From: Bordetella sp. FB-8
GTDB taxonomy: Bacteria > Pseudomonadota > Gammaproteobacteria > Burkholderiales > Burkholderiaceae_B
Reading direction: 5' to 3'
Assembly: GCF_000382185.1 (NCBI RefSeq)
Contig: NZ_KB907784.1
Span: forward strand, 1,513,633-1,577,632
DNA: 64,000 nt
Of the stretch, positions 27,224-31,720 are shown piece after piece. A program made the position numbers and the translations under genes. The first letter of the stretch is position 1, and every line of letters begins with the position of its first letter. The notes beneath the pieces are model-generated. The model saw nothing but the letters and a program-made list of their open reading frames with translations, ran no database searches and had not been told where the DNA came from.

Positions 27224-27940
27224 CTAAGATGCGGCCGTGCCGGGCAGCGGCTTCTTGCGGGGGCGGCCGCGATGGCCGGGCGAGACGCGGCGGCTGGCGG
27301 TGTGGGACAGGCTGGCGATAAAGGCCGGTCCGCCCAGCGCCCATTGGCCCGAGACAGCTTGTTCAATGCGCTGGGACTCGTCGCGCGAAAGGCCGTCTTG
27401 CAGCAGCTTGCGGTAATTGGCCTGGCGGTCGAAGGGCGTGTTGCCGCAGGCCCAGTAGTCGGCGTGGTCCGTCTGCCACGACGGGGCGGGCGTCTGGTGG
27501 CTGGCGCCGGTGTGGCTGCCGGCCGAGGACCAGGGCCAGGAATCCGGGTCGGACGCGCCGCCGCTGCGCACGGGGTAGGTTTCAAGCCAGATCTGGGCGC
27601 GCAGTACCCAGGGGTGGGGTTCGAGCAGGGCCGACCGGTAGCGCCCGGCGAAGACCCTGCCCCCGCGCAGGCGGGCCGCCAGGTTGCGCCCCAGGGTCTG
27701 CATCAGACGAGGCAGGCCGGATTCGTCGGCCGGAGTGGCCAGGAGCAGGATGCGGTCGGTGGCAAGGACCCAGCCATGCACGGCCACTTTGTGGCGCTGG
27801 GCCGAGTCGCCCAGCCAGCCGACGAGCTGGTTGAGAATGTCCTGCGGCGCGGGCTGGCCCGGCGCCGCCAATGGCTGGACGAAACTGGCCTGCACCAATT
27901 GGGGCAGCCCGGGAGCATACAGTCGGGGCAGACGAGCCAT
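27224..27940 (-). CDS. REP-associated tyrosine transposase-like protein lacking the HUH motif
   Basis: 238 aa. The start MARLPRLYAPGLPQ and the later RGGRVFAGRYRSALLEPH and IWLETYPVRSG segments match the Y1/REP-associated transposase family, where the equivalents are MARLPR, LWEGRYKS and YIELNPVRAG. Members carry a metal-binding HUH triplet (as NHVHLL) after a hydrophobic strand. Here the strand is HGWVLATDRILLLATP, with Asp62-Arg63-Ile64 where His-U-His should be. Tyr101, in the place of the catalytic tyrosine, remains. It is therefore probably not an active transposase; it may be decayed or domesticated. Start chosen at the family N-terminus. Confidence 0.75.
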   Translation of the reverse strand: MARLPRLYAPGLPQLVQASFVQPLAAPGQPAPQDILNQLVGWLGDSAQRHKVAVHGWVLATDRILLLATPADESGLPRLMQTLGRNLAARLRGGRVFAGRYRSALLEPHPWVLRAQIWLETYPVRSGGASDPDSWPWSSAGSHTGASHQTPAPSWQTDHADYWACGNTPFDRQANYRKLLQDGLSRDESQRIEQAVSGQWALGGPAFIASLSHTASRRVSPGHRGRPRKKPLPGTAAS

Positions 27941-28123
27941 GAGATTTAACCTTGCAAGGGGACGCAAGAGGGTTGGGGTCACTATATTAAATAGTGCCGC
28001 TGTCGTCGATGGTCATCCGGGGGCAAATCGTGCGCAGGCGTAACAGCGCGCTGCATAAGCGGCCGCGCGCCTAGCGGGAATAACCGCTCCCGCAGGGAAC
28101 TCCTACATGCTGGAAAGGTCAAA

Positions 28124-28150
28124 TTAGCACTCGACAAAGTAGAGTGCTAA
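28124..28150. promoter_or_regulatory. CIRCE element (HrcA operator) upstream of rpoH
   Basis: TTAGCACTC (28124-28132), nine bases, GAGTGCTAA (28142-28150): both arms match the CIRCE consensus perfectly. It is 43 bp before the rpoH ATG and would overlap a plausible promoter (TTAGCA at 28124 and TAACAT at 28147 with a 17-bp spacer), as expected for repression by HrcA. Confidence 0.95.
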
Positions 28151-28192
28151 CATCATTCAAATGCTTATTTCCTACCTTCAGGAGGCCACGCC

Positions 28193-29077
28193 ATGAAAGC
28201 AGCCAGTATCGCGACGGACAGGTCCAACGCGCTGGCGTTGGCAGTGGCCAACCCGGGCGCGCTCGGCACCATTGACGCCTATATCTCGACGGTCAACCGC
28301 CTGCCGGTGCTCAGCGCCGAACGCGAAACCGATCTTGCTCGCCGCCTGCGCGATCATGAAGATCTCGAGGCCGCGCGCGAGCTCATCCTGTCGCACCTGC
28401 GCCTGGTGGTGTCGGTGGCACGTCAATATCTGGGCTACGGCCTGCCGCACGCCGATCTCATCCAGGAAGGCAACGTTGGCCTGATGAAGGCCGTCAAACG
28501 CTTCGACCCCGAACGCGGTGTGCGCCTGGTGTCTTTCGCCGTGCACTGGATCAAGGCCGAGATCCATGAATACATCGTGCGCAACTGGCGCATGGTCAAG
28601 GTGGCCACCACCAAGGCACAGCGCAAGCTTTTCTTCAATCTGCGCAGCATGCGGCCCGATGGCCAGACGCTGGCCAGCGAGCAGGTCGACCATATCGCCG
28701 AAGAGCTGAATGTGCGCCGCGAAGACGTGCGCGAAATGGAAGTGCGCCTGTCCGGCCGCGACCTTTCGCTGGAAGGCCAGGACGACGACGAGGACAGCTT
28801 TGCGCCCATCGCCTATCTGTCCGACGAAGGCCGCGAGGAACCTACGCGCGTGCTGGCCCGCAAAGCGCACACCGCCCTGGAGGGCGAGGGGCTGACCCAG
28901 GCGCTCGAGGGCTTGGATGCGCGCTCGCGCCGCATCATCGAGGCGCGCTGGCTGCAGGACGACGGCGGCCTGACGCTGCACGATCTGGCCGCCGAGTTCG
29001 GCGTGTCGGCCGAGCGCATCCGCCAGATCGAGGCGGCCGCGCTCAAGAAGATGCGCGGCGCCCTCGCGCCGGCCTGA
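28193..29077 (+). CDS. rpoH: Heat-shock sigma factor RpoH (sigma-32)
   Basis: 294 aa. Region 2 is clear: SHLRLVVSVARQYLGYGLPHADLIQEGNVGLMKAVKRFDPERGVRLVSFAVHWIKAEIHEYI. The RpoH-specific segment QRKLFFNLR follows, and region 4.2 is HDLAAEFGVSAERIRQIEAAALKKMR. It directs RNA polymerase to heat-shock genes. AGGAGG lies 7 bases before the ATG. The upstream CIRCE element implies an extra layer of control by the HrcA repressor, which itself depends on GroEL. A strong terminator follows. Confidence 0.97.
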   Translation: MKAASIATDRSNALALAVANPGALGTIDAYISTVNRLPVLSAERETDLARRLRDHEDLEAARELILSHLRLVVSVARQYLGYGLPHADLIQEGNVGLMKAVKRFDPERGVRLVSFAVHWIKAEIHEYIVRNWRMVKVATTKAQRKLFFNLRSMRPDGQTLASEQVDHIAEELNVRREDVREMEVRLSGRDLSLEGQDDDEDSFAPIAYLSDEGREEPTRVLARKAHTALEGEGLTQALEGLDARSRRIIEARWLQDDGGLTLHDLAAEFGVSAERIRQIEAAALKKMRGALAPA

Positions 29078-29092
29078 TCTTCAAGCCGCTGT

Positions 29093-29131
29093 AAACGCCC
29101 AAGGCGCCGCGGGTCGGCGCCTTGGGCGTTT
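29093..29131 (+). terminator. Strong intrinsic terminator after rpoH
   Basis: A 16-bp perfect stem (29093-29108 with 29116-29131) has a 7-base loop and ends in TTT. It lies 16 bp after the rpoH stop and just before the antiporter gene. Confidence 0.8.
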
Positions 29132-29188
29132 CGCAAACCCACTATCCGCTATCCTTGAGGTTCGCATAGACAAGGAGCCTCGAGGCGC

Positions 29189-31720
29189 ATGGACGTCGGC
29201 CTGATCGTTTTCGGCATTGCCGGCCTGCTCACGCTGGTCTGCTTCATGCCGCCTCTGGCGGCCCGCCTCAAGCTGCCGTATTCGGTGCTGCTGGCGATCG
29301 TCGGCTGCCTACTCGGCATTCTCATGCACTGGCACGGGTGGGTGCCTCCAGTGCTGGGCGATCTGCTCGCCACCATCGATCACTTCGAGATTTCGTCGGA
29401 CACCTTCCTCATGGTGTTCCTGCCGGTGCTGCTGTTCGAAACGTCGCTGTCGATGAACGTGCGTCGCCTGATGGACGACCTGGGTCCCATTCTGCTGATG
29501 GCCATCGTGGCGGTGGTGGTCTGCACCATCGTGGTAGGCCTGGCCCTGAACGCGGCTTCGAACTACGGGATCATCGCCTGCCTGCTGCTGGGGGCTATCG
29601 TGGCCACGACCGATCCGGTGGCCGTGGTGAGCATCTTTCGCGAAGTGGGGGCGCCCAAGCGGCTGACTACGCTGATTGAAGGCGAGAGCCTGCTCAACGA
29701 CGCGGCATCCATCGCCCTGTACTCGGTGTTGGTGGCGACGCTGGCCGGCGGCGCGATGGAACATGGCCGGCTGTCGGTGGGCGGCGTGCTGGGCGCCTTC
29801 CTGTTCACCTTCCTGGGCGGCGGGCTGGCTGGTTACATCATGGGGCGCGCGGCTTGCTGGCTGTTCGCGTTGCTGCGCGGCTTTCCCACGGCCGAGATCA
29901 CGCTCACGCTCAGCCTGGCCTATCTTTCCTTCTACATCCCCGAACACTACCTGGGTGTATCGGGCGTGGTGGCCACGGTCATCTCCGGGCTGGTGGTGGG
30001 TTCGACGGGCCGCACGCGCATGTCTCCAGGCACCTTCGAACACCTGGCTCTGGCCTGGGAACAGTTCGGCTTCTGGGCCAATTCGCTGATCTTCCTGTTT
30101 GCCTCGATGCTGATTCCGCGCATGATGGCCCATGCCGGCTGGCTGGAGTTGAGCATGGTGCTGGTGGTGTTCGCCGCCACGCTGGCGGCGCGCGCCGTCG
30201 TGGTGTTCGGCCTGCTGCCGCTGCTGCGCGTGATGCGCATGAGCTCCCGGGTCAGCAAGTCCTACAAGGCTGTGATGCTGTGGGGCGGCCTGCGCGGGGC
30301 CGTATCGCTGGCGCTGGCGCTGGCGGTAATCGAGAAGGACGCCATTCCCGAATCCGTGCGACAGTTCGTGGGCGTGGCCACCACGGGTTTCGTGCTGATG
30401 ACGCTCTTGATCAACGGCACGACGCTGCGCTGGCTGATCGGCATGCTGGGCCTGAACCAGCTCTCGCCCATGGAGCACAGCCTGCGCAACCAGGCGCTCA
30501 TCATCGCCCTGGAAGACCTGCAGGAGCGCACCGACGAGATCGCGCGCACCGATCACATCGGCAGCGAAGCCAGCGCACGCATCCACGCCGTGTTCGATGC
30601 CAGCCTGGCCAGCGTTCAGGACGCGCAGGCGGCCCAGCTGACCGTCGAGCAGCGCGTGCGGGTGGGCCTGGCCGCTGTGGCGCAGCGCGAACAGGAAATG
30701 TTCTTCGACATTCTCAAGGCGCAGATCGTCGACTGGCGCATGGCCGAGAACCTGCTGGCGCGCGCCGAGCGGCTGGAGGATTCGATCCGTTCGCATGGGT
30801 TGCCAGGCTTGCAGGCGGCCATCGAGGCCGACGTGCGATACGGCCGCGGTTTCCGCATCGCCTTGCGCATGTACGACCTGTTCGGCTGGCAGGGCTGGCT
30901 GGCGCGCGAGCTGGCGCAACGCTTCTCCGCGCTGATGACCAAACGCTCGGTGGTGCAGCAACTCCTTAAATTCGCGCACGACGAACTCGGGCCGCTTCTG
31001 GGCCAGGAGGTGGCCCAGCGCATCGTCGACATCCACCAGCGCCGCCTGAGCCTGGTCGAGAACGCCATGCAGGCGCTTAATTTGCAATACCCGTCCTACG
31101 CGCAGTGGCTGCAGGAAAGCTATCTGGGCCGGGTGGCCCGCGAACTCGAGCGTCGGCGCTACCGCACCATGCTGGATCAGTTCCTGATCGGCGGCGAGGT
31201 GTATGCCGATCTGATGAGCCAATTGAACAGCCGCTGGCGGCATATCGACCGCCATCCGCCGCTGGACATGGAAATGGGCGCGGCCGACCTGATCAAGCGG
31301 GTGCCGCTGTTCGAAGGCCTGAGCGCCGAATCGCTGCGCGCCATCGGCCGCCTGCTGCGGCCGCGCCTGGCCTTGCCGGACCAGCCCATCTTGGGACGCG
31401 GCAGTTACGGCGCCGCCATGTGCTTCGTGGCTTCGGGCGCCGTGGCCGTGCATCTGCCGGACGGCACGGCGGTGGAGCTGGGCAGCGGAGAGTTCTTCGG
31501 CGAGCTGGCCTTGCTGGGCGAGCGGCAGGTCACGCCCAGGGTGACCTCGCTGGGCTACAGCAAGCTGCTAATGCTCTCGGCCCGGGACTTCGACGCGCTG
31601 CTGCGCCAGGATGTGGATCTGCGCGGGCGCATCGAGGTGGTGGCCAAGCAGCGCATGCGCGCCATCGAAGTGTGGAAGCAGTTCTCGCAGCAGCCTTCGC
31701 CGGACGGGGCGGCGACATAG
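29189..31720 (+). CDS. Cation/proton antiporter (NhaP/CPA1 type) with C-terminal cyclic-nucleotide-binding-like domain
   Basis: 843 aa. Residues 1 to about 430 contain 12-13 membrane helices of the CPA1 family, including FLPVLLFE, the ion-site LGAIVATTDPVAVVSIF (Asp in TDP), LIEGESLLNDAAS and WGGLRGAVSLALAL. A long cytoplasmic helical region spans about 430-690. The C-terminus is a cNMP-binding-like domain (KRVPLFEGLSAESLRAIG, then GEFFGELALLGER at about 767-779). The order antiporter-linker-cNBD resembles plant SOS1 and sperm NHE. Lacking the usual PR-A-T/S of true cAMP sites (it reads RQVTPRVTS), ligand binding is uncertain. It likely exchanges Na+ or K+ for protons. Confidence 0.88.
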   Translation: MDVGLIVFGIAGLLTLVCFMPPLAARLKLPYSVLLAIVGCLLGILMHWHGWVPPVLGDLLATIDHFEISSDTFLMVFLPVLLFETSLSMNVRRLMDDLGPILLMAIVAVVVCTIVVGLALNAASNYGIIACLLLGAIVATTDPVAVVSIFREVGAPKRLTTLIEGESLLNDAASIALYSVLVATLAGGAMEHGRLSVGGVLGAFLFTFLGGGLAGYIMGRAACWLFALLRGFPTAEITLTLSLAYLSFYIPEHYLGVSGVVATVISGLVVGSTGRTRMSPGTFEHLALAWEQFGFWANSLIFLFASMLIPRMMAHAGWLELSMVLVVFAATLAARAVVVFGLLPLLRVMRMSSRVSKSYKAVMLWGGLRGAVSLALALAVIEKDAIPESVRQFVGVATTGFVLMTLLINGTTLRWLIGMLGLNQLSPMEHSLRNQALIIALEDLQERTDEIARTDHIGSEASARIHAVFDASLASVQDAQAAQLTVEQRVRVGLAAVAQREQEMFFDILKAQIVDWRMAENLLARAERLEDSIRSHGLPGLQAAIEADVRYGRGFRIALRMYDLFGWQGWLARELAQRFSALMTKRSVVQQLLKFAHDELGPLLGQEVAQRIVDIHQRRLSLVENAMQALNLQYPSYAQWLQESYLGRVARELERRRYRTMLDQFLIGGEVYADLMSQLNSRWRHIDRHPPLDMEMGAADLIKRVPLFEGLSAESLRAIGRLLRPRLALPDQPILGRGSYGAAMCFVASGAVAVHLPDGTAVELGSGEFFGELALLGERQVTPRVTSLGYSKLLMLSARDFDALLRQDVDLRGRIEVVAKQRMRAIEVWKQFSQQPSPDGAAT

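Follow-up and report, generated by a model that had tools for sequence, protein, structure and literature searches.

A CIRCE element in front of the heat-shock sigma factor gene rpoH of Bordetella sp. FB-8: a predicted HrcA operator next to a sigma-E-type promoter and conserved among relatives

Introduction

In textbooks, HrcA and sigma-32 are two heat-shock strategies that overlap at groESL. HrcA is established in other bacteria as a repressor that is kept active by free GroEL. The HrcA/CIRCE regulon in the groups considered here was reportedly covered by a regulon study of 2003/2004, which may already list rpoH among the targets. In Geobacter sulfurreducens, a CIRCE with consensus arms was predicted in 2004 at 51 bp before the rpoH start codon, in a genome that carries hrcA (PMC545781, in the part of the article available). 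On the promoter side, the SigE holoenzyme transcribed the rpoH (fam) promoter of B. bronchiseptica in vitro, according to the accessible part of that study (PMC3490749).

Results

The CIRCE site and its surroundings

The window (the whole stretch of Bordetella sp. FB-8 DNA that was analysed, 64,000 nucleotides) was scanned for the inverted repeat TTAGCACTC-N9-GAGTGCTAA. The sequence TTAGCACTC-GACAAAGTA-GAGTGCTAA at 28124-28150 is a CIRCE with both 9-bp arms perfect (0 mismatches), as the sequence-only reading had stated, and it is the sole match in the window at up to 3 mismatches. It lies upstream of a stress gene, with 42 bp between its end and the start of rpoH, and abuts the -10 of a sigma-E-type promoter. 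The identity of the gene, also named in that reading, holds: RpoH matches the TIGR02392 equivalog with 406.6 bits (cut-off 323.1). The features of the region are as follows.

28096..28102, + strand: sigma-E (RpoE-like) -35, GGAACTC, predicted; in the same register in 14 other genus genomes
28119..28123, + strand: sigma-E -10, TCAAA (within GTCAAA), predicted; directly abutting the CIRCE, 16 bases after the -35
28124..28150, no strand assigned: CIRCE operator (predicted HrcA site); perfect arms, 9-bp loop GACAAAGTA; perfect at rpoH in 15/15 genus genomes
28124..28129, + strand: putative -35 TTAGCA matching the -10 TAACAT, spacer 18
28148..28153, + strand: putative sigma-70-like -10, TAACAT, made of the last three right-arm bases and CAT; contains the rpoH-specific NAT
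28180..28184, + strand: likely ribosome-binding site AGGAG, read directly in the sequence
28193..29077, + strand: rpoH (fam in Bordetella), heat-shock sigma factor, 294 aa (TIGR02392; Pfam sigma-70 regions 1.2, 2 and 4)

The open reading frame before rpoH (27224-27949, - strand, 241 aa) matches no Pfam or NCBIfam model at E 0.001; by eye, we take it to resemble REP-associated transposases. The gene after rpoH (29189-31720, + strand) encodes a sodium/proton exchanger, the C-terminal part of which is a cyclic-nucleotide-binding domain. An RpoH that is 67% identical to that of the window is encoded in a metagenome-assembled record (L233) bearing the title Bordetella parapertussis; the label of this record looks wrong, if the window is Bordetella-like.

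A chance origin of the CIRCE was rejected on three grounds. Shuffled versions of the window contained 0.01 matches on average (a match in 1 of 100 shuffles), the reversed control pattern gave 0 matches in the genome, and the site is conserved in the genus. With uniform base composition, perfect arms are expected ~6e-5 times per 4.08 Mb.

HrcA and its apparent targets in the genome

With up to 3 mismatches allowed, the genome (4,079,718 bases, 99.09% complete) contains two CIRCE sites, both of them perfect; the second is located before groES. It carries a single, intact hrcA, above the cut-offs of both PF01628 (219 vs 22.2 bits) and TIGR00331 (304 vs 197.2 bits). A genome search for hrcA and further CIRCE sites had been proposed with the sequence-only reading, and its outcome, an intact repressor gene and a second site at groES, agrees with the proposed link. 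Downstream of hrcA, and in the same orientation, lie a ferrochelatase gene, grpE and dnaK (L347, 1-3828, - strand), the last of which was identified by inspecting its translation. No CIRCE is found at hrcA, grpE or dnaK at up to 3 mismatches, thus HrcA does not appear to regulate its own gene here, and the apparent HrcA regulon, as predicted from the operators, consists of two targets, rpoH and groES. At the groES site, CTTGAA...CCCCTATAA is located upstream of the CIRCE and abuts it, which we take to be a sigma-32-like promoter motif. Many of the listed groES sites resemble this layout by eye.

Distribution of the rpoH CIRCE among relatives

All 15 genus genomes examined have a perfect CIRCE at rpoH. 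The 13 genus genomes that are at least 90% complete contain exactly two CIRCE sites each when 2 mismatches are allowed, one at rpoH and one at groES (13/13), and two incomplete ones (73% and 77%) show the rpoH CIRCE only. For a wider comparison of rpoH upstream regions, genomes were drawn evenly from the family, the order and the class. The 135 distinct genomes of these draws gave 129 rpoH loci, the window's own included. Two genomes were left out of the 129, namely G003, counted with the genus, and G035, whose contig starts inside rpoH; five (G058, G082, G110, G120 and G131) gave no locus, having no rpoH match at the E-value used, and G124 gave two.

The rpoH CIRCE (up to 3 mismatches) is present in 97 of the 103 loci from genomes with hrcA, the window's own among the 97, and in 4 of the 26 from genomes without an hrcA match (Fisher p ~1e-15, relatedness ignored). 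The respective counts with and without hrcA are 36/36 and 0/3 for the family, 32/34 and 0/3 for the order, and 29/33 and 4/20 for the class. The sequence-only reading had implied that CIRCE in front of rpoH is a rarity, the element normally controlling groESL or dnaK; this does not fit the order and class counts for genomes with hrcA, nor the 2004 prediction for Geobacter.

Three of the four CIRCE-bearing loci without an hrcA match come from genomes that are 62, 81 and 86% complete, therefore hrcA may just be missing from these assemblies. The fourth, G108 (L143), is an exception: the genome is 97% complete and its rpoH CIRCE has 1 mismatch. Conversely, six loci from genomes with hrcA have no rpoH CIRCE at up to 3 mismatches, and their best sites show 4 (G061 and G078), 6 (G129) or 8 mismatches (G105, G118 and the second copy of G124). 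In G129 (L153) only the right half-site GAGTGCTAA is left at rpoH. G118 (L104) and G105 (L157) have hrcA and lack the rpoH CIRCE at this threshold. In G124 (L141, L148) one of the two rpoH copies carries a CIRCE with 1 mismatch, and the other does not carry one. In two further loci an extra GAGTGCTAA half-site is found just upstream (L136, G102) or downstream (L138, G144) of the full rpoH CIRCE, as if the operator had been doubled. In G086 (L066, from the order draw, no hrcA match), ATAGCACAC...CGGTGATAA is found upstream of rpoH, shortly after GGAACTTT, and corresponds to a CIRCE with 5 mismatches; it seems to be an operator decaying after the loss of its repressor.

In a quick tree built from the 129 RpoH segments, hrcA changes at least 17 times and CIRCE at least 19 times. 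The test of joint loss on this tree had too little power, with 4 supported independent pairs: on average 2.9 changed in the same direction, 0.1 in the other and 0.9 showed no difference, so that the direction fits and the result is not significant (median p 0.25). When genomes at least 90% complete were used, the 4 pairs gave 3.2, 0 and 0.8, respectively, again not significant.

Among the best 80 of 589 named rpoH loci, CIRCE (up to 3 mismatches) is found in 55, including those of Pandoraea, Trinickia, Rugamonas, Diaphorobacter, Variovorax, Nitrosomonas, Polynucleobacter, Dyella, Alcanivorax and Ca. Thiodiazotropha. The 25 of these 80 without CIRCE include loci of Pseudomonas, Pantoea, Photorhabdus, Haemophilus, Aeromonas, Idiomarina, Halomonas and Xanthomonas. 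These counts cover the rpoH upstream region only. Without the duplicate L226, 54 of the 55 CIRCE loci were not already in the sample. As many related bacteria show the same arrangement, the circuit seems to be old and common to them rather than particular to one genome, and the rpoH CIRCE is widespread and probably of long standing in these groups.

The sigma-E-type promoter next to the operator

The layout GGAACTC-N16-TCAAA (28096-28123) lies immediately upstream of the CIRCE. We take the RpoE-like (ECF02) promoter to be a GGAACTT -35, a spacer of ~16 bp and a TCnnA -10. The layout agrees with this motif, likewise in 14 other genus genomes. One RpoE orthologue in the genome scores above cut-off (TIGR02939, 298.4 vs 236.15 bits), which five weaker matches do not reach. 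When the 15 genus sequences are aligned on the CIRCE, the mean column majority is 0.94 for the -35, 0.96 for the -10, 1.0 for each arm and 0.89 after the CIRCE. The less conserved columns are those of the promoter spacer (0.59), the loop (0.57) and the flanks farther down (0.56) and farther up (0.42-0.44). The CIRCE arms of the genus are thus conserved while the loop between them drifts. The sequence elements, their conservation and their co-occurrence with hrcA are direct observations.

For counting, a sigma-E promoter was defined as 6/7 of GGAACTT, 15-17 bases and TCnnA. By this rule it is found in 14/14 other genus genomes and in 62/101 further rpoH loci with CIRCE (family 27/36, own included, order 17/32, class 18/33), against 0/64 groES loci with CIRCE; shuffled upstream sequence gave a mean of 0.52/101, at most 3. 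The rule finds no sigma-E promoter in 39/101 further CIRCE loci and in 27/54 of the named ones. The groES comparison used the 64 of 71 loci in which a site was found within 3 mismatches and 60 upstream bases were available in full; 13 are from genus genomes, L160 repeats the own locus, and the rest are only those best-scoring matches to which a locus was assigned (up to 30 per draw). The groES scan covered the upstream stretch and the site, whereas the rpoH scan also covered the bases after it, which no rpoH match needed.

The spacing is exactly 16 in 62 of 76 matches. With the first CIRCE base as 0, the -10 starts at -5 in 24 matches (14 of them the other genus genomes), at +7 in 28, at -8 in 7, at +9 in 3 and elsewhere upstream in 14. 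In register +7 the -10 draws its TC from the end of the left arm and its remaining bases from the loop, hence the loops starting with TnA in the order and class loci (31/65, vs 0/64 for groES and 2/36 for the family). Counting against so simple a reading, a TnA loop start is also present in 11/32 order and class loci without a fitting -35, vs 20/33 with one. The 54 further named loci contain 27 with a sigma-E promoter, in register +7 in 18, +11 in 5 and upstream in 4. The register +11, with the -10 inside the loop, occurs in five named loci including Diaphorobacter, Acidovorax and Hydrogenophaga; it was first noticed in the named set itself, and its count there is no independent test. Named relatives that carry the operator together with this promoter include Dyella flagellata (register +7) and Diaphorobacter aerolatus (+11). 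In other lineages the CIRCE contains part or all of the predicted sigma-E -10.

A putative sigma-70-like promoter superimposed on the arms

A standard sigma-70 scan of the + strand (27950-29250, threshold 9/12) gave no site. TTAGCA-N18-TAACAT scores 8/12 vs TTGACA-N16-18-TATAAT, below the threshold of that scan, and its NAT is conserved; the overlapping TAANAT reading arose only from the comparison between loci. A candidate sigma-70 -35 seen by eye within the loop (TCGACA, 28131-28136) was dropped because the loop is unconserved in the genus.

The three bases after the right arm are NAT in 85/101 rpoH loci and in 14/14 other genus genomes vs 3/64 groES loci. An A at the second base after the CIRCE is common to rpoH (84%) and groES (80%), thus the telling base is the T at the third, found in 98% of the 101 rpoH loci vs 6% of the 64 groES loci. 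This T occurs in every sigma-E register and in 37 of the 39 loci without a recognised sigma-E promoter; among the latter loci, NAT is weaker in the class (9/15). The 54 further named loci have the T in 53 and NAT in 48. Together with the arm, the hexamer TAANAT (TAA of the arm and NAT) is present in 78/101 rpoH loci, 18 bases after TTAGCA or TTGGCA. The third base of the left arm is changed to G, which is nearer to TTGACA, in 21 loci, and the mirrored right-arm change is found in 3 (binomial p 0.0003). The respective counts are 10 vs 0 in the 54 further loci and 7 vs 5 for groES. From the conserved NAT and TAANAT and from the one-sided left-arm G, the rpoH operator seems to serve at the same time as a sigma-70-like core promoter. 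Its hexamers are weak, with scores in the 101 loci of 10/12 in 7, 9 in 36, 8 in 50 and 7 or 6 in 8, i.e. 8/12 or less in 58/101. Of the previously claimed overlap with a plausible promoter, this weak sigma-70-like promoter, recognised by inspection, can be retained as superimposed on the site, while the sigma-E-type promoter abuts it.

Discussion

It is likely, in our judgement, that the site is a functional HrcA operator which represses rpoH until GroEL is overloaded, and that the sigma-E and sigma-70-like promoters are then released. Free GroEL would keep HrcA active, and HrcA on the CIRCE would block rpoH transcription: when bound at 28124-28150, it would overlie most of the sigma-70-like promoter as well as the predicted start of sigma-E transcription. 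Sigma-E starts would be expected ~6-8 bases after TCnnA, and sigma-70-like starts ~7 bases after TAANAT. Because the activity of HrcA depends on GroEL, rpoH would be released when unfolded protein titrates GroEL; with GroEL occupied, HrcA would leave the CIRCE and two promoters would open, the sigma-E one, whose -10 abuts the operator here, and the sigma-70-like one formed from the two arms of the operator. RpoH would then drive the heat-shock genes, with groESL, which carries a CIRCE and a sigma-32-like promoter of its own, probably among them, and sigma-E would add to rpoH transcription on envelope damage. HrcA would restrain groESL directly and via RpoH, and new GroEL would restore HrcA. 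This would give a feedback loop through GroEL, with rpoH integrating envelope stress (sigma-E) and chaperonin load (HrcA). We infer the binding of HrcA and repression here, the use of the sigma-70-like promoter, the start sites and the feedback dynamics from the sequence.

The coupling of the HrcA circuit to sigma-32 that had been proposed is well supported, at the level of sequence, by the intact hrcA, the two apparent targets and the co-occurrence counts (97/103 vs 4/26). The wiring of the two heat-shock systems in series, also proposed, is kept as regards the link between HrcA and rpoH and has to be modified in two respects: groESL carries a CIRCE too, and, because the promoter beside the rpoH site is of sigma-E type, envelope stress probably enters as well.

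A broader reading, to which we incline with little more than even confidence, is that of a composite rpoH CIRCE across the beta- and many gamma-proteobacteria, read by HrcA, by sigma-70 (through the arms and NAT) and by sigma-E, whose -10 would abut the operator, straddle the border of arm and loop or lie in the loop, depending on the lineage. As operator and promoters would share bases, HrcA would compete directly with both holoenzymes, and the rpoH gate would open on the loss of free GroEL and be amplified by envelope stress; the registers would have shifted with neither function lost.

Other explanations of the site differ in how much of these data they can accommodate. The control of sigma-32 in E. 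coli is mostly post-transcriptional, and HrcA might similarly bind here and mainly tune the basal level of rpoH, the heat induction of sigma-32 being left to translation and stability and the circuit being minor in heat shock. The persistence of the site in the 39/101 loci without a recognised sigma-E promoter is what simple level control would give; the conservation of the arms and their joint absence with hrcA point to a kept function, yet do not tell tuning and induction apart, and we regard this explanation as rather unlikely. The palindrome could also be kept mainly as a core promoter, with the arms as -35 and -10, or as a hairpin at the 5' end of the mRNA, the binding of HrcA being incidental. 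The overlap of TAANAT with the right arm (78/101 loci) and the excess of left-arm G (21 vs 3 mirrored, 10 vs 0 in the 54 further loci) would be expected of a core promoter, which however requires neither the symmetry of the arms nor their inner bases GCACTC/GAGTGC and should not be absent along with hrcA, whereas the site is absent from 22 of 26 hrcA-less loci; we consider such an origin very improbable.

Least credible of all, to the point of being nearly negligible, is a chance palindrome or the relic of an abandoned circuit. The decayed copy in the hrcA-less G086 shows that relics exist elsewhere and nothing of the kind is seen in the own genome, where hrcA is intact; the shuffle mean of 0.01 and the perfect arms around changing loops in 15/15 genus genomes speak against both variants.

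If the HrcA operator reading is true, much of the beta- and gamma-proteobacteria sampled here would have one hierarchical circuit, in which a repressor controls the sigma factor and sigma-E feeds the same site. It would also explain the retention of hrcA with apparently only two targets in the genus. Owing to the abutting register found here, the left arm could be mutated with the sigma-E promoter left intact, which would allow a clean test.

Comparison with known systems

In the literature searched, outside of which most subscription papers lie, neither a site shared by HrcA and sigma-E at rpoH nor, in the portions of text available, a measurement of the effect of HrcA on rpoH mRNA was found. 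Nor did this literature yield a description of an operator whose bases are shared, in several registers, between HrcA, sigma-E and a sigma-70-like promoter; the earlier regulon study may have priority on the rpoH sites as such. The Geobacter sulfurreducens case concerns a delta-proteobacterium and, in the available part of the article, the rpoH site is given for one genome only (Table 8) with no sigma-E overlap described (PMC545781). The sigma-E promoter class before rpoH is the same here as in E. coli rpoHP3 and B. bronchiseptica fam; the accessible text of the fam study contains 0 mentions of HrcA and discusses no repressor site at the start (PMC3490749).

With the HrcA/CIRCE regulon of the groESL and hrcA-grpE-dnaKJ operons, the present system shares the operator, the repressor family and the groESL co-target. 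Unlike in that regulon, the target here is the heat-shock sigma factor, and hrcA, grpE and dnaK have no CIRCE in this genome even when 3 mismatches are allowed. Bases of the rpoH operator appear to be shared with a sigma-70-like promoter, whereas the groES CIRCE comes after the -10.
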